DNA of 64,000 bases from Aldrovandia affinis. Lineage: Eukaryota > Chordata > Actinopteri > Notacanthiformes > Halosauridae. The stretch is from the NCBI GenBank assembly GCA_029706075.1, contig JAINUG010000048.1, positions 3,528,501 through 3,592,500 of the forward strand, in the 5' to 3' direction. Every line of letters starts with the position of its first letter. The stretch's first letter is position 1. The position numbers and the translations under genes are program-made. Positions 5,689 through 60,735 of the stretch are shown here, one piece after another. The notes beneath the pieces were generated by a model. That model did no database searches. It was given only the letters and a program-made list of their open reading frames with translations, and was not told where the DNA came from.

Positions 5689-14838
<9,150 letters not shown>

Positions 14839-14845
14839 CTTCACT

Positions 14846-17800
14846 CTGGAGTGTGTGTGTGTGTGTGTGTGTGTAGGGGGGATGGGGTGGAGATGGAGGC
14901 AGGTGATGAAACAGATGCAAGAGGATGATGTAGGTGAAAAAGACATAGTGATTATAAAAGAAGGAAAGAGGAGGGGAAAGGGGAAGAGGAGAGGTCAGTC
15001 ACAAAGAACTAAAAGCAAACAGTATAACTAAGCCACATCTTGTCTTCTGACATGCTTTTCTTAATGAAAACAATAATCATGTGAAGAGAGCGACAGGCAG
15101 ATATTAATGTCATATTTTTATCATCACAATAAAGTACAATGAAAATAAATATTTATAGTAAAATGTAAATTAATATTGCACTTTTCCCTTTTTATCTCAT
15201 TATTTCAGACAGTGGTATCTTGCATCAGTTCCTTTCCAATTAAACTTTGCTTCCAGTCTAATACATATTGAAACTGCCCCGCAGCTGCAATCTTCTTCAT
15301 ATGTAAACAATGTAATTAGGTTATTTTACTGGGGTTTTCAGATTTTCCAGAACAACACACAAAGTGTTTTAAGCAAGGTACCTAAATAACACTTTATGGC
15401 AGACCTGTTTGGTACAGCCAACGGAAAGAGGAAAGGTTGGGGAAAGAAAACCCTTCCTCAATTTTAAACCCTACAGCACTTCTCTGTGGAGTGCTTTGAA
15501 CGGAGTGCAAAATCCCCAAAGGTCTACTTTTCATGACTCATCAACAGATTTTCTCCATGTGATGGCGTTTTAAATTGGTAGCAGAATGCAAAACCATCTG
15601 TTCAGAAAAGTTTCAGGGGTGTCCATCCCTCTTGCTGAATCTGTGCGTGTCCTCAAGATGAGACTGGGAATACCCACGGTTTCATGCTGAATCAAGATAC
15701 AATACCCCTCTCCTCTCTTCCATAGATATCTGGCCCTTACAGAAATCTTGCTGCAGGAATAAAGCTTCCTGTCCATCCGTGGCTTTCCTCTCCATGCTAC
15801 ATCTTTAAGATTCCGTCTACCGTCTGTCCCCTCACATTCACAATCTCACTGTCACGGCAAGTAAAATTCAGCTTTGTGGGCATGAAGCAGGATACACAAC
15901 AGCATAACGGCCAGTATTAAAAATGGAAAATGGTAACACAGCTGACACTTAAGTTTATCGGTAGCGGGGCGAGGAACTGTAGAATGATCTGTTGAAGAAT
16001 GACTGAGTGCTCGAATTGGAATAAGTCCTACACATAGCCCAATTATTAAAACGAGCAAAATCAAAGGGAATTACTGTCAACCTCAGCCCTGAATGTGTGA
16101 TCCACTCTCTCTCGGACTCCCGCTCCCAATCAATCCCCCCCGTGCCACGCAGCCAGTCTCTTGGGCACACAGGGCAGTACGAACGTGTGTGGCTATTCCG
16201 TGGCAGCCGAGCGCTGCTCAGCACAAACACAGCCTCCCCCTAGCAGACCCCAAGACCCACTCCCTCCCCATGCATCCAGAAGCACACACAAGAGACTCAT
16301 TATTCTAACCTCTCACATTAATATGAAAACTATTCGTGAAAGAGGCACTTCAGCAGTGAGAAGAGCCACTATATTCGCCATTGCCATGGCCGAGCTGCCA
16401 ATGTCTCCAATAGCCAATGCTACATATGTCTCTTCAAGCGGTAGTGGATTCTTCTGACAAACTTAAGTGTCTTGTTTAACGACAGTGGTAAACTAAACAG
16501 CTCTCATTCATTGCGGATTAGCACTAATCAAAACGTTGGAAACGTGACTGTTTTGGGATATGGGAAATAGCACTTAATTGATGTGCAATTCAGTTGTGCT
16601 GTGGATGTTAGCTTTAGCTGGAGAGCTGCAATCCTAGTGATGCTGACAACCACTGGCACATTCTGCCATCCAGGTGTTCTCACACACCGCAGATATCAGA
16701 TTCTGAAAGTTATTTTTCAGCAAACTTGTCTGTGCATGTTTCCAGCTGTTGCCTAAAGCCTGCCACACGAAGCCATTCTGGAAGACTTCAAACAGCAAAG
16801 GAAATTTGACTACAGTGTAATGGTTTTACAAAAAATGAGAAATTTAACCAGACGACTGTACACTTAATCCTTATTTTAACATATATATTTTTTTAAAGAT
16901 CCATCTTCTCAAGAATATTTCAACATGCATTTTCCTACACCATAACACTTTTATTCCTGCTATCTTTAAGACAGTGACTACTCATGGCACTACAACAGCA
17001 ATTGCCCTATGTAGGCTATAGCAAGCCACAAGCAACCAGTTTTATAACATAGCTGTATGTCTAACTCATAAAATCTACAAGAGGAACTTTTAAAACCAAA
17101 AATACATCTGGCTATTTATGTCTGGCTGCAACTGGAGGACGTAGATGTAGTGTACTTAAACTCACATAGTGACTGACTCACTAACCACCGAATTTCTTAG
17201 AGTAGCTCTTGCACTAACTATATTTCACCACTAGAGTGAAAAGGACTGCACAGCAGTCACAGTTTAGAACACATTGGCTGTTGTATCGTTTTGCTGAGGG
17301 GTAGTTAACTTGGCAGCACCCATCATTAATATTTAATTTACAAATAATGATATTTCTATTTTAAATAATGTAAGGTATGCCATAAATTATGCAGATCTAG
17401 TCTACTAGATCTCAGAAACCGCGATCTACTGTAGCTAGTTTTTCGGAACCACTGTGAAATATTCAAACAGGAGGAATGCAAAGAAATTACCAATATTTAA
17501 ATATAAGATAGACTGTTGAAAAAGACTATCCGCAAATGTTTACCGTGTGGAAATCTTAATGTGATCATCATAAGCCACGTTATTTCCTGCCGATAAAAAA
17601 TGGCAAGCTTGCTAATGTTGGTCATCAGTCTAGACAAGGTTGAAATTCTGAAGTTTTTGTCCCAGTCAATTCACAAAAACGCCTACAAAACTGCATGCGA
17701 GTGACACTATAAAAATAGCAGTAGGCCTACTCGTTAACATTGTTTTAATTGTATTGTACTGGTTAATACGATGGAAATGTATCACATATTTGGCTCCACT

Positions 17801-35705: not shown

Positions 35706-36531
35706 TAATGGAACACAGAACACTGCCACCCCTGCTGCTTTCTCCACTGCCTACACCTTCTCCCACTGCCAGGAGCCTTGGAGTGACCCTGGACAACCAG
35801 CTGTGCTTCTTGAACAAGACAAAACGAGACTTATCTTGAATGGAGGTAACATTGCCAAGACCTCCGGAAATAACTATATTCAATGCATGGTATTTCTTAT
35901 GTGTTGCCACGTTTACATGCTGAGTAAAATCAAGAGATTGTTGCATTGTTATAATAAATGTCATAGCTGTGGCCTAGAGTGTTGGTTGGGTCTTTCTTTC
36001 TGTCTGGATTCCTGGCAATTTCCACTACAGGGCCCACTCAGTGACAGAAAATGTTGGTCAAACATACAATCTTTATTCTTTGCCATTCAACCAGATACCC
36101 ATACATGGAGAAATGTATTGATGATTATCTCAGAGAGTGTCTAACTTCCTTCATAGCCATTTCATAGTTTGTTTTGGACAAGTACTCAAAGAAGAAAATA
36201 AACACAATCACAGACCCTGGCACTCTTCAGATATTTTAAAACAGCATAATTGACCTAGGCCTTGGTGATAGTTGCTGATTAAAAATCCCCAATAGAGAAT
36301 ACCCATATTACTCTGCTTGTCTCAGGTCCTTCTCTCACATTGACTTCTTGACAAGTAATTCTGTTATATACAAAATATCTGATCCTGAAATGCATCCTAT
36401 AGTCATCTTGGACCACGGGCCAATCAGCTTCAACCTAATGAATGAGATCATACCCAAAGTTAGTCATTTATTCACATTCATCAGTAGTGTAATAAACAAT
36501 TTATAAAATGTTTTCCCATTGCTAGGCTTAC
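35706..36531. other. No gene recognised; trace of L2 reverse transcriptase
   Basis: A stretch near 35775-35805 reads as SLGVTLDNQL, a scrap of L2-type reverse transcriptase. The remainder up to the exon at 36532 has no exon I can support. Confidence 0.4.
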
Positions 36532-37104
36532 CGAGCAGCGTGACCTCCTGTGTGATGCCATAGATGTCGATAATGGCCCACAGGGGGCGCCCCGTGCTGA
36601 GGTCACAGTGGAACAGCACAGGCTCGCCCTCATTCACACTGTAGAAGACGCGGCCGTGCCAGTCTGCCCAGAAGGCCAGCACGCTGTCACGCAGGGCGAG
36701 CCGCTCCGGCAGCGCTGTGGCCCAATACCCCGGTCGCATCACCAGGTCGGGGCAGGCATACTTGGGGATGTCGGCGGAGGCCAGCTCACCAGGGTCCAGG
36801 CTGGTGAAGCCGAAGCGTAGCGCACCGCTCCAGCCACTGTGCACCGTGGTCAGCTGCAGCCGGACCTTCTGGTACAGCTGGACGGGCCGCTGGCTGAAGG
36901 TCACGCCGTCGCAGAAGCTGTTCTGGCGTGTGGCCCGGCGCAGCTGCGAGTCCAGGCGGATGTTTTTGCCCTTGGCGTGGGGGTGGAACCGCGGAGACTC
37001 CAAGTTGAGGCTCAGGGGTGGGGCCGAGGTGCGCCGCTCCATACCGCTGCCGAACAGCGTGTAGTACTGCCTGCTGCCCACCGGGCGGTGCTGGAGGGTA
37101 GCAT
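36532..37104 (-). CDS. neurl1b: Neuralized-type NHR-domain exon (neurl1b-like), single exon
   Basis: Neuralized proteins are E3 ubiquitin ligases acting on Notch ligands, with two NHR domains and a C-terminal RING. This 573-bp exon (acceptor 'cttacag' at 37105, donor 'gtaagc' at 36531) starts in phase 1. It encodes about 190 residues with one complete first NHR domain: FHPHAKGKNIRLD, RQNSFCDGVTFSQRPV, GWSGALRFGFTSLDP, PKYACPDLV, VLAFWADWHGRVFYSVNEGEP and PLWAIIDIYGITQEVTLL. It resembles vertebrate NEURL1B more than NEURL1. The coding frame is intact. The second NHR and RING exons should follow at lower coordinates, and I find neither between here and ugdh. The N-terminal MGN exon is not seen either. 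It may be an orphan exon, a gene with giant introns, or the 3' exon of gene A at 37746. Confidence 0.85.
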
Positions 37105-37745
37105 CTGTAAGGGCATCAGAATTGCAGATTAATACAAGCATCGATCCACCATCATATCCTGCTTAAGAGCCGAGCCACAGTGAACCTCATATAACAGCAC
37201 AAGATAAACCACTCAGACACACACACACACACTCACACACACACACACGCATACACATGTACACACAAACACATACATACAATTTAACTTTCAACTTTCA
37301 TGAAATAGTTTGGTATGACATGAAACAACATGAGTTCCTTTGCGTAAGTAACACTTAAAACTAACATCATGTAGTCACACATGCCTGACAGGAATTGTTA
37401 TTCCACATGGTCTCTCCTCCATGTGTCAAATATTAAGCATTAAATCGCTCTCACATATTCATGCCATTATGCCTCAAAATGCCTTCAAATGCCTGCAATT
37501 AGGGACTCCTTTGCATCTATACAATTTCTAATATGCTATGAAATAACGTTTTTATAAGCGGAGATATGTTATAATATCTATATAATATAATAGGTGTTAA
37601 AAGTGTTTCCTTTATTTTGGCAGGTACCTGTGCATCACGTGCTGTAAAATGATTTGTTTTTAATTGAATAAAAACAAATTGAATAAAAAACTGATGGTAA
37701 ATGGAGAGAAAAAATAAAGGGACAGAGGAACACAGAAGAGCATAC
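37105..37745. other. Intron or spacer with (AC)n tract and an ISRm11-type end
   Basis: An interrupted (AC)n stretch lies at about 37210-37265. 'tgtttcctttattttggcag' at about 37603-37622 is one end of an ISRm11-type element. No exon is recognised. It separates gene A's last visible exon from the NHR exon. Confidence 0.55.
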
Positions 37746-38893
37746 CTGTGGCTGCCAACATGTTTAGTACTGGGAAGCGTCCAGAATTCATTACTAAATG
37801 GTCAATAATATCTCTAATTGAGCAACATATTTGTTCCAAGTTTACTATTCCAGAAGAGGTGATTTCCATTACATCTGCCTTTCCGTTGAGCTGACTCAGA
37901 AAGGTAGTCCACTGCTTCATCTTACTCTGTATTAAAGTCTCCTTTTCAATGAGTGACTTTTTCTTTCTTTGTTTTTCATCCAGACGAGTCAGATCCTGTT
38001 TCATCTTACTAATGTCTTTGAAAACGTTTTCACATTGTCTCTTCAAAGTGCTCAGCTTTTCTTTACGGTCAGAAATGTTTGCTTCATGAATTGCAGCCAG
38101 GTTTTTCCATTCATTTCGTTTCTTTTCCGCTTCTTCACGTTCACATCGACACACAGCATATGAAATGCCACCTGCAATTGTACCTGTACATGATATGACA
38201 ACAGCAGTAATCAGTACTGTTTCATTTTGATGAATGATTGCTATGTCACGAATACACAGGAGATTTTATAGCACAAAGGCAGTGGATGGAAGTGTGTGCA
38301 CGTGTGTGTACAAGCATGCTGAAATTCTCAGTTGTCAGTGATTCTCATTTCAGTGTCATTTTGAAATGACTACATCTGCAAAATAAATAAGCATACATAC
38401 CTACAATGGGAATGAACATGATAGCAATGCTCACTGAAGCTGCTTCATCAGCACGGTCATAGTCTGACTGAGCTTCCGCTTGTTTCGCGACGGTTGTTTC
38501 CAACTGTGATTTGGCTTCCTTCAGGTCATGAGTAAGTAATTTATTTTCTGTCTCAAGCCTAACAATTTGACTTTCCTGTTGCTGCAACACTTTTTCATTA
38601 GATTTAATCTGATCCTCTAGAGTTTTCTTACTCACTATCAGCTGCAGAACATCATCATTAAGCTCTTCAAGTTTTTTGTGAGCAGCTTCTGTGGCCTGTT
38701 CTGTTTTGCAGTGTGCTGTTGCTATGAGATCTAATATTTTCTCACAGTCTGAGGCTTGTATAGAACTTGAACTTGAGTTAATCTTATTGATAGTGTCAGT
38801 GACTGTTAGAATGGCACATAAGCCATCTGTTAATGGAACTACAATTCCATCTGCAAATTCTTCAGTGATCTGCCGGTAGTTCTCCACAGCCAT
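37746..38893 (-). CDS. Gene A: unrecognised coiled-coil protein with central apolar segment, 3' end open
   Basis: I do not recognise the family. Two exons are supported: 38902-38401 (start codon at 38893, acceptor at 38903, donor gtatgt at 38400) and 38183-37746 (acceptor tgtacag, donor gtatgc). Phases agree and together they give about 310 residues. Residues ~45-150 are a long heptad-rich helix region. About 153-175, spanning the splice junction, is apolar and Gly-containing (VSIAIMFIPIV on the first side). About 178-250 is a second, Lys/Glu-rich coiled coil (KKRNEWKNLAAIHEANISDR, LTRLDEKQRKKKSLIEKE). There is no signal peptide. This layout resembles alpha-helical pore-forming proteins of the ClyA/Hbl type, or ApoL-like proteins, and function is inference only. 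The last exon ends in phase 1, so another exon must follow, and the NHR exon at 37104 is compatible. Gene B, 3.4 kb upstream on the same strand, shares the layout. Confidence 0.7.
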
Positions 38894-39084
38894 GATGCCA
38901 ATCTGGAAAAAAGGGTTTGAAACAATGCTTTGAAAGATGATCCAAAAATCCAATGTTCATATTTATTTCATCAACCCAGAAATGTCATCATTACAGTTCA
39001 TGCCAGCACAGAGATACAGATTTAAATGAGTGTTCTACTTTTACCATCTCTGCAGCAAGTTTGGGAGAGCCCTAACGAAATACC

Positions 39085-40290
39085 AGTGTAGCCGAGTAAA
39101 GAGTGACACATAAATCATACTTATCAGACAGGTTTCAATTTGTGCAATTAGATCAAGAGTTCTCTGACTACTCTCAGGTTAAATATGGTAAACCACAAGG
39201 CTCAGTGCTGGGACCATTACTGTTCTCATTATACTTGCTACCACTCGGTAATGTTATTCGTAAACATGGTGTGAATTTCCATTGCTATGCAGATGATACA
39301 CAGCTGTACATATCAATGAAACCAGGTGAAATACTTCAACTCACTCAATTAGAGGCTTGTATCTCTGATATAAAGAATTGGATGACAGTACATTTCCTGC
39401 TTTTGAATTCAGATAAAACAGAGATGATGGTTTTGGGCCCCAAAAAATTAAGGAACAAGTTGGATCTGCAGTTAAATGCAGGTGATTGCATAGTTGCATC
39501 TAGTTTAATGGTCAAGAACCTTGGTTTTATTATTGATCAGGGCCCGTATTCACAAAGCATTTTAAGGGTAAACGTTGGTCCTAACTGCGCGATTTAGGAG
39601 CAAGTCCGAAAAATAATGGGTGTGTCACTCATAAATTTAGGAGTCCTAAATTTTTGGGATAAAAGTATTTCACAAAGGGGTTGAGAGCTAAAAACAGCTC
39701 CTAAGTCCAGGAGAAGTTAAAAGCAGCCAAGAGGACTTCTAAGTCGCTAAAGACCTACTCACGGCGATCCGAAAATCTGCTGCGGCCGGCAATCGTTGTC
39801 GCAATCGCGTCAACACTGGAGATATTGAATGATACGGAGCTCATAAAAAGGTACCGCCTCAATCGCGAGGGTATTATATATATTATATTATATATATTAT
39901 ATATAGATACCTGCTGATGTTTACGAGATGCAGACATGTAACCAATTGACTAGTCAGTATTCTTGGTTTCATGTTAAATCAGTGACACGTAGCCTACATT
40001 TGTATTTTAGAATCTTTATTAGAATAATTATATTAGAATATAATAGATCCAAGAAGTATGAGCACATTACTCCTGTGTTAGCATCACTACATTGTTAAAT
40101 ATCGGGCTGATTATAAAGTACTGTTGCTAACTTTTAAAGCAGTGAACGGACTTGCACCTATATATCTGACCGAAATGATTGTCCCTTATATGCCGACACG
40201 ACTGCTTCGTTCACAAGAAGCTGGCCATCTATTACTCCCTAGAATTTTGAAAAGCACAGCTGGTGGTAGAGCCTTCTCTTTTTAATAAAG
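39085..40290 (+). pseudogene. L2-type LINE reverse transcriptase fragment, split
   Basis: At 39103-39540 the plus strand encodes the polymerase core: [20 protein letters not shown], then the catalytic [11 protein letters not shown], then [14 protein letters not shown] and LGFIID. After an insertion it resumes near 40075-40280 with LLTFKAVNGLAPIYLTEMIV and the LKSTAGGRAF end typical of L2. The N-terminal endonuclease part is absent and stops occur in the second half. It lies between genes A and B. Confidence 0.87.
39541..39890 (+). mobile_element. Harbinger/PIF-type 5' fragment inserted in the L2 element
   Basis: The L2 frame is cut exactly where 'gggcccgtattcacaaagca' begins, a terminal sequence known from fish Harbinger elements. 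Further in, about 39815-39870 reads EILNDTELIKRYRLNREGI, the start of a PIF/Harbinger transposase. The rest of the transposase and the other end are missing. An AT repeat follows at 39870-39905. Confidence 0.65.
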
Positions 40291-41419
40291 GTAATTATTA
40301 AAATGTAACTCTCAAATTCATTCCTCAATTCCCTTCAGACCTCTCTGCAGCTGGGGCCAGGTAATATAATTGCCCACCTAATAAGCAGAGCTACTCCATT
40401 AGTCTTTCCCCTGGCGGGGAACTAAATCCAGCACCCCCAGGTGTCCAGAGTATATATTGCATCACAATGTGCATTAAAACAGGGATTTTTGACCATGAAG
40501 GAGTTTTATGAGGAAAATTAAATTTTCCATATATCATGGCTTTGATATATGAAAGTTCTGATATTGAAACATGCCCCCATGCAATATTTATATTTGTGTG
40601 TATATATGTGTCACAGGGGTGACCAGCGCTCCCACTTAATAATTTGTACTCTCCTCTTATTTATTTTCTTGACTTAGTCACTTTTTGTTATAAGTGTGTA
40701 AACATTTATGAATCATTTGGTGGGAGATCCGATTTGTATAATTTTATTTGAGGTGAGTTGTATTTTTGCTGTGATTTATTATTACTATGGAATTTTAGTG
40801 ATGGGATTGGCTAGATTTTGGAGGGTTTTCTTGCGGTGGGGTGTCTTTTTCCCTTTTAAAAAGGAAGCTGAGGCCAGTGAACAAGAGAGCGCGATATGAG
40901 TGACTGCAGTGAACGAACTGTGGCAAGCAAGCTGGGCAGACTATGAGATTGAGCAAGCCAAAGTGGACCGGTGTGACCGAGGTGAGCGTGTGAGCTGAGG
41001 ACGGATTCTCCTAAGCAAGTGGTTCATGCAGCCTAGTGCACCCGGCTGATGAGCGTGGGGAAAATGCAAGGGTGCCTTAACACTAAGTTTTACAGGGCTT
41101 TGGGTCCTAGTGCCCCGTTTTAACTAGGTGGCGTATTCGAGCAGATTCACGTTTGTCACCACGTGACATGTGCACAGTTTTTGTTAAATGTGTTTTGCCT
41201 TCACTACAATAAGTACATAATTAGAGGTATCATGCTGCAATACGCTGAGTTTATATAACGAACAGAACAACACTGAACTGGCTGGAGGAGGTTGGGGAGG
41301 TACAGGGTACAAGGGAGAAGATGGACCTGTTGACTAGTAGCTTCTTCTACCAAGTTTTACTTGTTTAATGACTGGCAAAATAAGAGTCAATACCATTTTT
41401 CTTTGAAGGTGAATAATGC
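40291..41419. other. Spacer, no gene recognised
   Basis: No exon or well-defined element is seen. The GC-richer block at 40880-41120 is possibly an old retroelement, but I cannot name it. Confidence 0.35.
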
Positions 41420-41425
41420 TTTATT
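41420..41425 (-). terminator. Candidate poly(A) signal of gene B
   Basis: The minus strand reads AATAAA here, about 900 bases downstream of gene B's stop codon. No other gene on this strand would use it. Weak, motif-only evidence. Confidence 0.35.
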
Positions 41426-42324
41426 TTTAGATATACATACATATTTTTTTAAAGTTTAGATTTGTCAGAGGTGTCATTTCCATTTTAATCACAATATTAA
41501 GTTTGTAGGATCAGTATACAGGGTGTGCTATAAATTCCTTTACTCTTAGATTTTAACATCAACTGACTAAATGCATACAAAATGAGACATTTTACAGGTC
41601 AAAGGTGTGGCACCAGGTTATAATTGCTTATAAGGCACTCTAATTCAACATCTTCTACACATATATTCTGGAAGCTGTGCCACACCCCTTTAAGGTAACA
41701 TTTAAAAAAAGAAGAAATTGCAAGAAATTGTCTCATGATTTCAAAGCAAGCTGATATGTTTGACAGTCTGCGCATATACATTTTGAAGAACGCATACCCC
41801 ATCACAAACCATCACTTTAATTAATAGGTATCTCTGTATTTGACTTGTAAGTGTTCATTTTTAGAGATCAATATTGATATTGAAGTATTCGTTACTGAAG
41901 GCTAAAACATTTGCATTGAAACAACATTTCATGCATTTTCCATCCGCTTGCACCTCTTTCTTAGTAGCCACTCATTATGCAATACATCCAGGTACTATAA
42001 AAACACTGAAATCGAAATACTCCCATTAAGTGGTGATGGTTAAGATAGACAGGTTATGTTTAACAAACCTAGTAGAACTATTAATGACAGAACACACTTA
42101 AAAGCATACATGTATTAGATAAAGAATAAAGAAACTCTTAAGAGTATTACAATTTGTTTGAGTCTTACAATTGGAAAGAATATGCTTAGGAACAGTCATG
42201 ACAAATGAATGCACCAGTTTGTGTGTATGTACGTGGTTGTTTCTGAGTACGTGTGTGAATGTGAGTGTGTGTGTGGACTGATCTTTGATATTTGTTTCTA
42301 ATCCATCTGTCTCCTGTGCAATCT

Positions 42325-44409
42325 TTAGCCAAATTGATCTGCATCTTCCGCTGATATCTCCTTCAGTATCTCCTGGGGCGCCTTATGGACAGTATCCTCA
42401 ATAGCTTTCTGTTCTTCTCTGGAAGGAGTTGGCAGCACAGCTTTCAGGTTACGATTGATGGAATCAATTCTCTTCTCAATCATTTCGTCAAATTCCTCTC
42501 TGTTTCTCTGCACAAGCTCTAGAATCCCTTTCTGGGCTTCTTTGCAACCTTCCATCAGCTCAAGTCGGGCTTTTTCAAATTTCTTACTGCCTACCTCAAG
42601 AGACATCAGAGTCGTCAAGTTACTTATGCGATCCATCAGGTACTTGTTGGAAACCTGGACATATGTCTCAGAGATCATGTGAACAAGGTGAGCAATATTG
42701 CTTGCCTGGAATGCCGGGCCATACAGCATGTCTTTAATGAAGTCTAAATGTCGATAGTTTGGAATGGCAGGAATGGACTCGCATTTGTTGACAAAATCGG
42801 AGACATTTACATTCAGACATGTTTCAATTAAATTAGTGATCATTTGGAAGAACTTGACCATCTTGGTCCACTGTTCTCTCACACTTCCCAATGCTTCTAA
42901 TCCTCTTGCCAGCATTTTTAATGTAGTGTCAAAGTCAATTTTCTCTACATCAAGGTTTCGCATTTCAGTGAGGATGCTATCGAATTCTTGGGTGCATTTT
43001 TTCATGTTCTCAAAGGATTTGTGGTATTCAGCTCTGCTGTCTCTCAGCTGCTCCTTGCTTTGCTCAATTCTCATTTGACTCATTTGTATTGTGGAGCTCA
43101 AGATGCCTTCGGAACTGCTTGAACCTTGCCTTGCTTTTGATGCATTTGGGACACTTGGTTGAAAGGCAGCAGTATTTGTTAGACTATTGCAGGAAATACT
43201 AAACTTGTTTGCCTTGTCTACCAGGTCATGTATAGCTGCAGGAATAGCGTCCTGGTGGCATGACTCCACATTACGCCTGGTGGCCAACTCCTTTTGCAAA
43301 AGGTCACATATGGTCTTCCCGGCCTTGCATAGACTCAGAGCAGGCGTTTTGACTTCACATGCCTTCTCATTCTTCAATAAATCTGCTATGTTCTTGAACT
43401 GTTTACCAATGCTGGTTGATTGTGCTATATTTGTCTTCTGGTCACGTAGCTTAGTCATATCAATCTGGTCTTCAGAAACAAACTCCAAAAGACTTTGTGA
43501 CAGAGCCATAATAATGCCAGCCTTTGATGCAATGTTCATTGTGGCGCCAGGGTCTGATTCTTGAGACTGAGATACTCCTTGTGTTTGGTATTCTTGGAAC
43601 TTTGTGGATTCTCCATTTATCAAGTTTGGTAGAGCGGTTGCGACTTTAACTACCGCATCTGCCAAAGCATAAGCCATAATATTAGCCCCACTGGGCATGG
43701 AGTTGATGGCTTCCTTGTAAGTTTCTTGTGATTCTTCCATTTGTTTAGTTACTGTTTTATGATATTCTTCTGCCATTTCTTTGGCCATTTCTGCAGATTT
43801 CTTTTTGAGCTCGGTGTATTTGATGGCCTCAGTCACTTTTTTCAGGCTTTCTTGGTGAGCTGATTTGGCAGATGTACAGTTTTCCAGAAGCTCAGAGATT
43901 AGTGCAATTATGGTTTGGAAATCTTCTTCAACTTTTTCAGCCAAACTGAAGCACTTGCTGGAAATTACTTTCATTTTTTTCAGCTGGAGGGGAAGCAGTG
44001 ACTCCACAATTGCTTTATCTTCTTGCATAAGGGTCTGGACAACAAGCTTCACATCGTTTGGTATGCTTAGGCTCAGGAGACGTATCTTGTCCATGTTTGT
44101 ATGAGCTGTATTGAAAGCTTTCCATCCATCATTGCAGACCTGCATCAGACAGGCCCGGAAGGACTCTGGGTGTTTTATGTGTGTAAAGGTTTTGTTAGGT
44201 GTGTGCCTGTTGATGGCAAAATCATTGTTTGCTGAAATAAACACCAGTTCACCCAATATAGCAATTGACATTGGCCCTGGAACCAGGAATTCTCCCCAAT
44301 TGGCATAGGCTCTCATTTTCAGCTCAGTTTCCTCTCGAACGTCTTGAGCCCTGTAGATTTTCTTCATTCCATTATTCAGTTCAGCAATACAGTCACTATT
44401 GGAGGCCAT
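42325..44409 (-). CDS. Gene B: 694-residue unrecognised helical protein, single open exon
   Basis: I do not recognise the family. One uninterrupted frame runs from the ATG at 44409 to the TAA at 42327-42325. I prefer this start over the upstream in-frame ATG at 44475: the upstream 22 codons look like translated 5' UTR, and gene A likewise starts just inside an exon. Residues 1-100 look globular (AYANWGEFLVPGP, INRHTPNKTFTHIKHPESF). Residues 105-240 are helical. About 241-266 is apolar and Ala/Gly-rich (MAYALADAVVKVATALPNLI) and a second weaker apolar stretch lies at 288-311. Residues ~440-560 and 600-694 are again coiled-coil-like. No signal peptide and no catalytic motif are seen. The coiled coil - apolar segment - coiled coil plan repeats that of gene A and recalls alpha-helical pore-forming or ApoL-like proteins. 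An open frame this long in a repeat-rich region argues for selection. Confidence 0.8.
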   Translation of the reverse strand: MASNSDCIAELNNGMKKIYRAQDVREETELKMRAYANWGEFLVPGPMSIAILGELVFISANNDFAINRHTPNKTFTHIKHPESFRACLMQVCNDGWKAFNTAHTNMDKIRLLSLSIPNDVKLVVQTLMQEDKAIVESLLPLQLKKMKVISSKCFSLAEKVEEDFQTIIALISELLENCTSAKSAHQESLKKVTEAIKYTELKKKSAEMAKEMAEEYHKTVTKQMEESQETYKEAINSMPSGANIMAYALADAVVKVATALPNLINGESTKFQEYQTQGVSQSQESDPGATMNIASKAGIIMALSQSLLEFVSEDQIDMTKLRDQKTNIAQSTSIGKQFKNIADLLKNEKACEVKTPALSLCKAGKTICDLLQKELATRRNVESCHQDAIPAAIHDLVDKANKFSISCNSLTNTAAFQPSVPNASKARQGSSSSEGILSSTIQMSQMRIEQSKEQLRDSRAEYHKSFENMKKCTQEFDSILTEMRNLDVEKIDFDTTLKMLARGLEALGSVREQWTKMVKFFQMITNLIETCLNVNVSDFVNKCESIPAIPNYRHLDFIKDMLYGPAFQASNIAHLVHMISETYVQVSNKYLMDRISNLTTLMSLEVGSKKFEKARLELMEGCKEAQKGILELVQRNREEFDEMIEKRIDSINRNLKAVLPTPSREEQKAIEDTVHKAPQEILKEISAEDADQFG

Positions 44410-44743
44410 GATCTTTGTTCTCTTATGGAAAAAATGTAATCTGTAAAAGACAAGTACATTGGTGTATCCTATCAAGTGAGTACATGTTTACATAAAATAA
44501 TCTATCCTATATCATATGGCAAGTGTTGCTAAACTCAAGGCCCACAATATATTCCCGGTTGTTTAAAGTTTAAACCACCTCAGAATGCAATGCTTCTCTT
44601 AGGCTAGATATTTATACCAAACGATCTGTCATAAATCTGACACAATTCCACAGAATGGGGTGGAGTATGTTGCAGAAAATTCTCTGGAGAGTCACGTAAT
44701 GCTTAGAAATCGTTCATTGTCAACATTTATATTTCAGAAATTC
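44410..44743 (-). other. 5' flank of gene B
   Basis: No further exon recognised. A possible acceptor ('ccataag') lies about 15-20 bases upstream of the gene B start codon, which would allow a non-coding first exon further upstream. No promoter motif stands out. Confidence 0.35.
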
Positions 44744-45463: not shown

Positions 45464-45698
45464 ACAGGTAACTGTCAAAATAAAGTTAATATTTTGGTAA
45501 CACTGAGCGACACTCAAACAGCCCTGGCCCGGACGAGGAGAGTCCCAGCTGGGTGGAGGGGGCTGTTGGAAAGGGGAGGGCCGGGCCTATCTGCTAGTAC
45601 TGGACTTGGCACTCCCTGAAAAGACACTCATGGTACTGCACCTGTTTAAAGGATCCCTTATTTACTCATGTGTTGCCTTTATTTTGGCAGTTACCTGT
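45464..45698. mobile_element. Short ISRm11-type MITE
   Basis: The ends 'acaggtaactgtcaaaataa' and 'ttattttggcagttacctgt' are inverted repeats of the ISRm11-like group. The total length is 235 bp with a GC-rich, non-coding interior. The same ends occur at 11156-11687, and single ends near 37603 and 61055. Confidence 0.85.
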
Positions 45699-46002
45699 AC
45701 ATTTTATTGTCAAACTGATGGTGACTTGTTTGTGAAATTGCTAACTTTACTAGCAAGCTTGCTTCCTACATTGATTAGCTAACTAACAATATATGTATTA
45801 TCGTAAGCACACCGATATAGTGGCTTCCTCGCTAGATTACTAAAGTAAATTGTTTGTAAAATATCATTAGCTTGCAGTTAGGTAGACAGTGAGATTTTTT
45901 AAATATGGAACGTGGCAAGGTATTGTAGACTATTTTGTCTATAGCCTAGATTAGACAATCAAATATTTTTTTCCACAGCTGATCAGTATTTTAATTAGAA
46001 CT

Positions 46003-48180
46003 TTTTACACATTTTTCTCCCAATATGGAATATCCAATTGTATTTGCAATCCACACTTTTTGCATCCCCTGCTATTAATCCGGGAGAGCACAGACAAGCA
46101 TGTGTTCTCCGAAAAGCGTGATGTCAGCCACTGCTTCTTTTCACATCTTTGTCCAGTGGTTCCAAACTCGGTCCTGGGGCACCGCTGTGTATGCTGGTTT
46201 TCGTTCCAACCATAATTGCAAAATTTGAATTGTAACAAGCTGTTAATTGTTCATAATTTGACTATTTTAATGTCTATTGAGGGATGACTTACCCTCTTAA
46301 GGTAGGGTTGCCAACTTTCTATCATGCAAATAAGGGAGAGAATGCGGGGCCACTGGGGGCGAAGTGGGTATGGTGTTGTATGGATGTAAATCAACACATA
46401 CTGTATATTGTATATTGTAACATGAACAAGGAACTTTGGCCCATAAACGGGACGTCCCAGCTAATACGGGACAGTTGGCAACCTTATTTTAAGGCCATAT
46501 TATGTCAGAAATAGCTATGCATGCTCTTCAGAGCTCTTCATGCATGTCATGAAGAATGTCTCATTTTCACCTCCCAGGACATTTAATCAGTCAAACTAAT
46601 ACTTTCTCTGTAAAGTGTTATATTTCAATGATTCCGTTAGAAAGAGGTTATATATTTTTTTAATTGATCCAATTATACTATGGCAGGTGAAATCAGTGGG
46701 GTCCTAATTGCTGAAGGGTTGACACCTGAAACTAAAGGGTTTGTGGAAAAGGAAGAGTTGCACATCTTGTAAGTCGCTCTGGATAAGAGCGTCTGCTAAA
46801 TGCTTAAAATGTCAAATGTAGGCAATGACCTAAACCTGCCTTGTGTTGAAATTAGTTTAAGTTCTACCATAAACACCTTAAACACAAGATTTCAACAACC
46901 TTAATTGGCTGTAACAAAAACCTGCATACACAGTTGGTGCCCAGGACCAAGTTTGGCAACCACTGCCATAGTCTACAAGTTAAACAAGCACAGACCTGAG
47001 TCAGAGGAAGACACTTTGTGTGCAGCTTTTTACTGGCAGACTGTGGGATTCCCCATTGACCAGAAGGGGTTGCTGGTGAGTGACGAGATGCAGAAAACCC
47101 AGCCAACTAAACCCTCCCTCTGCACTGGTATACACAACAGGATGCAGACCATGGGGCTCATCCACACACTAGAACAGTGTCTTCTGTTCAGGATGAGCAG
47201 GATGAAGGTGGTGAGAGGTCAGCAGTATCTCTTGATTGTGTTGGACTGTTACTACTACTCCTTCTCATACAGACTGAGTGCACACTGAATGAGATGAGTC
47301 AAGCCAGCTGCACCTTATCTATTGCCCTTCTCCCTCCCACTGATTGAAACTACCAATTATCACCCCAAATTGGGCATAAAAAGGTGAAAGAGACTTACCT
47401 GGGGGTGCTTCTACCTGGATCCCCACACCGACAGGCTCGCGTAAATCTTCAATGCTGCTGCAGTCTCCTTCGCTCCTTGCTGTTGCCGACCTGTCAAATT
47501 ATCAATTTACAGAAGAAGGTACATTCATGACATCAATGGGTATTTACCTGCTCAGAAAAGCCAATGGGAGACTGAGTGAGTGGCGGCGACTATTGCCTGT
47601 TGACCTGGCCAGGGATTCAGAGGGAGACCCATTGTGCAAAATTAATTTAAGTTGTTTCCCTCCACTCCCACCCTTCACTCCTGGGAGGCAGAGTTGGAAG
47701 AACACTCCTTTGGAGTGCAAATGAATGGAGGAGCGATACCATTTTAATATGGAAAGGCCTCACAAGGACCACTCTGTGGAAACGATACGCCCGCCACTGC
47801 CACGGAAACCGTGGTCATCTTTGCAGCTGGACAGTTTACAATCCCAGTTTAGAAGTATTTATCTTGCACCTGAATGAAGCATAATTGGCTACATGCAGCT
47901 AGATTACCTTCTGAATCTTAAATAACAGAAGTTAATGGGTGGGACAATGACCTTAACAACCCAGAGTATATTATATTGGAAAATAACTGACAAGTGATCA
48001 GTTACGGGTTCATCATCCAAAAAGGCTGTACAAAATAAACAATACAGTTAATGACTTCAAATTGGGAAATTATATTTTCTTTTTAACAAGTAATATTTTT
48101 TCCCCAGAAATGTATGTCTCGTAATTAGGGACACCAGTTTATTTATAAGCTATTTTTTTATATCTGCAAATTATTGAGGG
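46003..48180. repeat. Segmental duplication, copy 1
   Basis: This ~2.2 kb block matches the 48181-51280 block in order and orientation. Shared landmarks include the hAT-type element, 'gtctacaagttaa', 'gagtcagaggaagacacttt', 'cttcaatgctgctgcagtct', 'acttggccagggattcagag'-like sequence and 'agggacaccagttta'. It begins with a truncated SINE-like stretch (about 46010-46145) shared by both copies. No intact gene is carried: the longest frame, 46905-47288, is not conserved in the second copy. Confidence 0.85.
46154..46965. mobile_element. Non-autonomous hAT-type element (first copy)
   Basis: The ends 'cagtggttccaaactcggtc' and the complement near 46945-46965 ('gtttggcaaccactg') match those at 48331-49362. 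The right flank 'ccatagtc' is preserved, and the left 8-mer has diverged. A ~60-base L2/V-SINE 3' tail with 'gtaagtcgctctggataaga' is inserted at about 46755-46820 and is absent from the second copy. No transposase frame. Confidence 0.8.
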
Positions 48181-57482: not shown

Positions 57483-57774
57483 TGCTGTTCTAGTGCGTGG
57501 CTAAGCCCCATGGTCTGCATCCTGTTAAGCCACTGTTCTAGTGCGTGGATGAGCCCCATGGTCTGCATCCTGCTAAGCCACTGTTCTAGTGCGTGGATGA
57601 GCCCCACGGTCTGCATCCTGTTAAGGCACTGTTCTAGTGCGTGGATGAGCCCCACGGTCTGCATCCTGTTAAGGCACTGTTCTAGTGCGTGAATGAGCCC
57701 CACGGTCTGCATCCTGTTAAGGCACTGTTCTAGTGTGTGGATGGTCAATTGGTCCAGCACAGTCTGGTATAATG
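57483..57774 (-). repeat. 48-bp minisatellite, six copies (16-residue frame)
   Basis: 'gttctagtgcgtgg' (last copy gtgtgg) recurs at 57487, 57535, 57583, 57631, 57679 and 57727, exactly 48 bases apart. Since 48 is divisible by three, the minus strand is open and would give repeats of RMQTVGLIHALEQCLN. Single monomers occur at 47139-47186 and twice at 49551-49850, so coding is unlikely. Confidence 0.93.
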
Positions 57775-60511: not shown

Positions 60512-60735
60512 AGTGTAGTGTAATGGTTAGGGAGCTGGGCTTGTAACTCAGAGGTTGCAGGTTCAATTCCCAGGTGGGGGCACTGCTGTTGTACCCTTGA
60601 GCAAGGTACTTAACCTGAATTGCTTCAGTAAAATATCCACCTGTATAAATGGATTGTATGTAAAGAAATGTAAACTGTGTAAGTCGCTCTGGATAAGAGC
60701 GTCTGCTAAATGCCTGAAATGTAAATGTAATGAAA
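60512..60735 (+). mobile_element. V-SINE, full length
   Basis: A tRNA-like head (A box 'tagtgtaatggttaggg', B box 'ggttcaattcc') is followed by the V-SINE core 'cccttgagcaaggtacttaa' and the UnaL2-type tail 'gtaagtcgctctggataaga', ending in 'aatgtaaatgtaatg' repeats. It is the best preserved of the copies in this window. Confidence 0.92.

Follow-up and report, generated by a model that had tools for sequence, protein, structure and literature searches.

Apolipoprotein L is helical and carries an apolar hairpin. The ClyA-like alpha-pore-forming toxins (ClyA, Hbl/Nhe, YaxAB, AhlB/SmhB) place an apolar inserting element between long helices and act, in the ClyA/Hbl/Nhe case, as sets of related subunits. 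A five-helix bundle core is common to them (PMC6162564). Fishes, for their part, harbour expanded gene families such as finTRIM, with many paralogues arising by duplication (PMC2657112). A preliminary description of 64,000 nucleotides from the fish Aldrovandia affinis (contig JAINUG010000048.1 of GCA_029706075.1, here G000:C2000:3528501-3592500 and hereafter the window) had likened two neighbouring genes, A and B, to the first two of these systems, proposing that both follow a coiled coil - apolar segment - coiled coil plan and may together form a membrane-active, possibly immune, module. The present analysis shows gene B to be a real multi-copy orphan protein family that is mildly constrained, with conserved helical ends and a middle free to vary; gene A would be an unrelated coiled-coil protein that rides in the same duplicated block and seems dispensable.

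Gene B was expected to be a single exon of 694 residues on the minus strand, and this was borne out by an open frame of 694 uninterrupted codons from an ATG at 44409 to a stop at 42325. A putative intron of the 5' untranslated region (UTR) likely ends 31 bases 5' of the ATG. The parts of gene B, in window positions, are:

42325..44409, minus strand: coding sequence of gene B, stop codon included; one coding exon, 694 amino acids, orphan protein, predicted all-helical
44440..44441, minus strand: likely splice acceptor of the 5' UTR intron, reading cttttacag before 44440
43060..43704, minus strand: central unconstrained part, residues 236-450, equal to alignment columns 236-455
42328..43119, minus strand: C-terminal helical part, residues 431-694, including the most constrained segment of gene B

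The genome searched comprises 1.22 Gb, and all copy counts are lower bounds. Gene B returned at least 34 matches at an expectation value (E) of 0.001 or below, spread over 12 contigs, of which 8 copies run without a break over roughly the full length, namely the window copy and seven sisters at 85-87% identity, one of the seven spanning residues 1-677 only. The remaining matches are partial or broken, including old ones full of stops at about 27-45% protein identity; the broken, divergent copies at L044 about 7966-9993 (C1899) and at C328:21759-23770 belong to this group, and such copies point to a family that predates the copies now open. A rearranged copy was also seen at G000:C604:2093-5029, where residues 275-418 recur inside a long open frame.

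Gene B is under mild purifying selection, which is clear at both ends and absent in the middle. The ratio of non-synonymous to synonymous substitution (dN/dS, omega in the codon model) was 0.695 for the seven open copies modelled (p 0.0014 against 1), with 0.58 for columns 1-235 (p 0.012), 0.96 for columns 236-455 (p 0.79), and 0.36 from column 456 on (p 2e-5). For this model, copy L004 was excluded as near-identical to L003, the columns from KAPQEI on were removed because L008 diverges there, and omega = 1 was fitted using the tree of the free model and five kappa values. A counting method agrees, giving ratios of 0.15 to 0.78 over the 28 pairs of 8 copies, and sliding means of dN/dS reach 0.94-1.08 at columns 241-300 and 331-450 only. 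The central part consists, as judged by hydropathy and the alignment of 8 copies, of a linker of varying length flanked by two amphipathic apolar helices, and the changes in linker length among the copies preserve the reading frame. Several uninterrupted paralogues under purifying selection, the mark of an expanded fish gene family, were thus found for gene B and were not found for gene A. In its many paralogues gene B resembles families of the finTRIM type; it differs from them in that gene B is without known domain or function and positive selection is not demonstrated for it.

Gene A had been described as two minus-strand exons lying 3.4 kb from gene B, and both statements hold, the distance being that from the gene A ATG to the gene B stop:

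38401..38893, minus strand: gene A exon 1, with start codon, coiled coil, and first half of the apolar stretch
37746..38183, minus strand: gene A exon 2, with second half of the apolar stretch and coiled coil; 3' end uncertain

Starting from the ATG at 38893, the two frames are joined in phase by splice signals, GT after 38401 and AG before 38183, and donor and acceptor are conserved in the sister copies covering them (8 copies each, the window included). A likely acceptor 9 bases 5' of the ATG is likewise identical in 8/8 aligned copies covering that site. The spliced frame encodes 310 residues before it meets a GT at 37745; read-through past this GT would give 28 more residues and then a stop, and the sister copies hold sequence at the 3' end of the gene which the window copy is without. 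The C-terminus of gene A is best treated as provisional, and a third exon may follow.

The heptad-rich regions ascribed to both genes were recovered, with 0.27 of the 28-residue windows of gene A and 0.15 of those of gene B exceeding the threshold of periodicity, a level matched by 0/200 shuffles in each case, and neither protein begins with an obvious signal peptide when judged by eye, as had been stated. The common plan with a central apolar segment held up well for A and poorly for B, because of how the apolar stretches fared against shuffled sequences. In gene A the stretch at residues 154-175, which the intron interrupts after FIPIV, lies convincingly between coiled coils, and its best 19 residues (154-172; Kyte-Doolittle 2.03) were equalled in 40/1000 shuffles. 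In gene B the central stretch 242-260 (1.38) was equalled in 754/1000 shuffles and is amphipathic, containing Asp and Lys, and a second one at 293-311, C-terminal to the variable-length linker, was equalled in 817/1000; the most apolar stretch of the protein, 41-59 (1.76; 255/1000 shuffles), sits near the N-terminus before the coiled coils. By hydropathy the central segment of gene B is not membrane-like. The hydropathy values and the codon counts were computed by script.

Both genes were said to be unrecognised, and this stands, since no Pfam or NCBIfam model attained its own threshold, and no PDB sequence fell below E 0.1, for either of them. The nearest approaches for gene A were an SMC coiled-coil match in NCBIfam (E 2e-6, 25.9 bits, far below the cut-off of 567), a Pfam match at E 0.0078, also below its cut-off, and a best PDB value of E 0.12. 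The family searches of gene B gave chance-level matches only (lowest E 0.013, in 1/7 copies), with 0 in PADLOC and a best E of 0.11 in PHROGs. No relative of gene B was detected in phage records by tblastn, nor, by two peptide patterns that reach near relatives only, in viral contigs or in bacterial and archaeal genomes taken one to a species. No publication was recognised as naming gene A or B, by which absence from print is not demonstrated.

The comparison with the described toxins yielded nothing to show that the pair makes membrane pores. The ClyA-like toxins are without sequence match to A or B, the Bacillus_HBL model PF05791 is absent among the Pfam-A matches of either protein at E 5, and the same is true of the apolipoprotein L model, PF05461; the likeness of layout to apolipoprotein L, a helical protein with an apolar hairpin, is thus accompanied by no Pfam match in A or B. 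A search of the genome with the PF05791 profile gave one match elsewhere (C2133), of 21.7 bits, below the 29.1 cut-off; this candidate (L045 950-2101, minus strand) was rejected as an ordinary-looking long coiled-coil frame. The structure model of full-length gene B had a predicted local distance difference test score (pLDDT) of 37.4, which is unusable, and was kept out of the fold search because of its poor quality. The model of the C-terminal part comprises four long helices (pLDDT 54.9, predicted template modelling score (pTM) 0.47), and both models contain helices and no strands. In the fold search the weak C-terminal model behaved as a generic helical bundle, the ClyA-type toxins appearing among the matches without significance and no better than such bundles. 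Its matches included the four-helix bundles of alpha-catenin, the FAT domain, and the vinculin tail at 7-12% identity, a likeness which may reflect a common bundle arrangement only. A candidate for an apolar inserting element between long helices is present by hydropathy in A (154-175) and not in B. Lastly, the notion of A and B as related subunits, in the manner of the ClyA/Hbl/Nhe sets, was not upheld at the level of sequence, the best BLASTP alignment between them having E 0.24 and hhalign a probability of 0.1.

Gene A returned at least 23 matches across 9 contigs, and A and B are taken to have been duplicated together because 7 of these 9 (C2000, C1024, C1530, C20, C2469, C2035, and C113) also carry B. 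In 5/7 shared contigs (C2000, C2035, C20, C1024, and C113) gene B is found 2.2-6.6 kb upstream of A in the same orientation; C1530 and C2469 do not have this arrangement. The pairing is explained by block duplication, since the similarity between loci extends to the non-coding parts of the A-B interval; similar non-coding DNA is also found on both sides of gene B. At 37606 the similarity of the window copy ends, and this left edge is attributed to a loss in that copy because the others align with each other past this point; a transposon end there was considered and dropped for the same reason. Within and beside the block lie two further elements:

39100..39594, plus strand: reverse-transcriptase fragment between A and B (PF00078, E 4.2e-15)
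37603..37635, no strand assigned: short repeat past the last open exon of gene A, with a second copy at 45670-45702; sister loci have it too

None of the 20 loci compared matches the interval 39114-40283 over more than 150 bases.

The fates of the two genes within these blocks diverge. Both exons of gene A are open at 2/9 loci, the window and C1024, extending there over 292-294 codons. It is broken by frame breaks or stops at 6/9 (C20, C2469, C1835, C2035, C113, and C1912), and at C1530 exon 1 alone is left, cut by the contig start. The B beside the open A of C1024 is a broken fragment, so that A and B stand open side by side in the window only, and of the open copies of gene B, 4/8 are on contigs without an A match and 2/8 are separated from the nearest A match by 19 and 32 kb. 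The codon model of gene A, run on exon 1 in its four open copies, gave an omega of 1.62, which does not differ from 1 (p 0.072), and the exon 1 ratios over 28 pairs drawn from 8 copies, some of them broken, ranged from 0.76 to 2.49. For these comparisons the broken copies were read in the frame of the window copy, leaving out gapped codons and stops, exon 2 was read up to the codons common to the copies, and C113 was compared in part only. The exons diverge at about the rate of the intron and flanks, and in several pairs faster than the intron and 5' flank. Neither constraint nor diversifying selection was therefore demonstrated for gene A, either by the codon model on the four open exon 1 copies or by the pairwise ratios of 8 copies. 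On these grounds the side-by-side module of the preliminary description, taken as a two-part machine retained as neighbours, is unlikely: A is broken at most loci and shows no purifying selection.

The explanation that we consider to have an even chance of being right as a whole is that of a selected, soluble, helical B family accompanied by a dispensable, travelling A. Gene B would belong to a fish multigene family that expanded as blocks several kilobases long were duplicated, and whose proteins would be soluble, all-helical, and probably cytosolic. The helical parts at both of its termini, being under selection, would probably pack as a bundle serving to hold the protein or to oligomerise it, and its middle, free to vary, would probably contact either a membrane surface or a partner that itself changes. 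Gene A would be seated in the membrane by its short apolar hairpin. Several points weigh against this picture. The full-length model of gene B is unusable and that of its C-terminal part weak; its omega is drawn from paralogues, in which gene conversion may mislead, and the constraint is mild; its unconstrained middle may be merely disordered or dispensable; and the family is known here from one fish genome and from DNA alone. The idea of A and B as a defence pair making alpha-helical pores in the manner of ClyA/Hbl, in which the hairpin of A and the central helices of B would insert and the coiled coils form the pore, draws on the layout of A, and is judged unlikely in view of the toxin comparison above. 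A still less likely extension, which we hold only as a long shot, would see in the block a home-grown, multi-copy, alpha-helical pore-forming system of vertebrates against infection, in which B would be a soluble bundle whose variable middle can insert and A its hairpin-anchored partner.

Compatible with a selected B family and a travelling A, and credited by us with a probability a little under even, is the proposal that A is a decaying bystander, that only B matters, and that the A frame of the window is open by chance. The six broken loci and the one cut by a contig end, the exon 1 omega indistinguishable from 1, and the near-equality of exon and non-coding divergence all speak for it; the two loci with both exons open over nearly 300 codons do not, and the pairs whose exons outpace the intron and 5' flank, together with the spread of exon 1 ratios, would fit diversifying selection too. 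A further possibility is that the A-B block was carried by a large mobile element or by an ancient viral integration; this would account for both the dispersal and the many broken copies. The presence of copies on 12 contigs, some less than 20 kb from a contig end or on contigs shorter than 45 kb as is seen with badly assembling repeats, the single coding exon of gene B, and the transposon pieces within and around the block are in keeping with such an origin. Set against this, the left edge at 37606 is specific to the window, no common ends emerged in the stretches compared (which did not delimit the right edge), phage records and viral contigs held no relative within the reach of the searches described, gene A has an intron, and similar non-coding DNA lies on both sides of B. 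We judge such an origin quite improbable.

Regulatory scans of the region were unremarkable. An interferon-response consensus, with at most one mismatch allowed, occurs 15 times in the window against 11.8 expected (equalled in 22/100 shuffles), and a scan of L001 for STAT sites gave a chance-level result. The four exact interferon-response sites all fall at 54-57 kb of the window. Between 54088 and 56823 there are four exact occurrences of the site GAAAACGAAACT, spaced 910, 907, and 907 bases apart, and this spacing points to a tandem array whose unit measures about 0.9 kb. Elsewhere in the window, an exon of a Neuralized-type gene (36467-37162, minus strand; PF07177, E 2e-42) adjoins the 3' side of gene A, a 48-bp minisatellite of 5.4 copies (57485-57743) lies within a minus-strand open frame of 155 amino acids, three 3' ends of the UnaL2 long interspersed nuclear element (LINE) are found at 9595-9648, 46756-46809, and 60666-60719, and frames at about 12163-14994 on the minus strand resemble, by eye only, exons of UDP-glucose dehydrogenase.

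Gene B thus represents a multi-copy family under selection which is covered by no Pfam or NCBIfam model and is without a sequence relative in the PDB. Constrained ends, a free middle, and many broken copies form the pattern of genes engaged in conflict with pathogens, and a conflict-related role would fit the copy turnover of gene B; this is argued from analogy and is not a finding. As matters stand, gene B is one more expanded orphan family; should its members turn out to be induced by infection or to bind membranes, they would constitute a new kind of fish effector.
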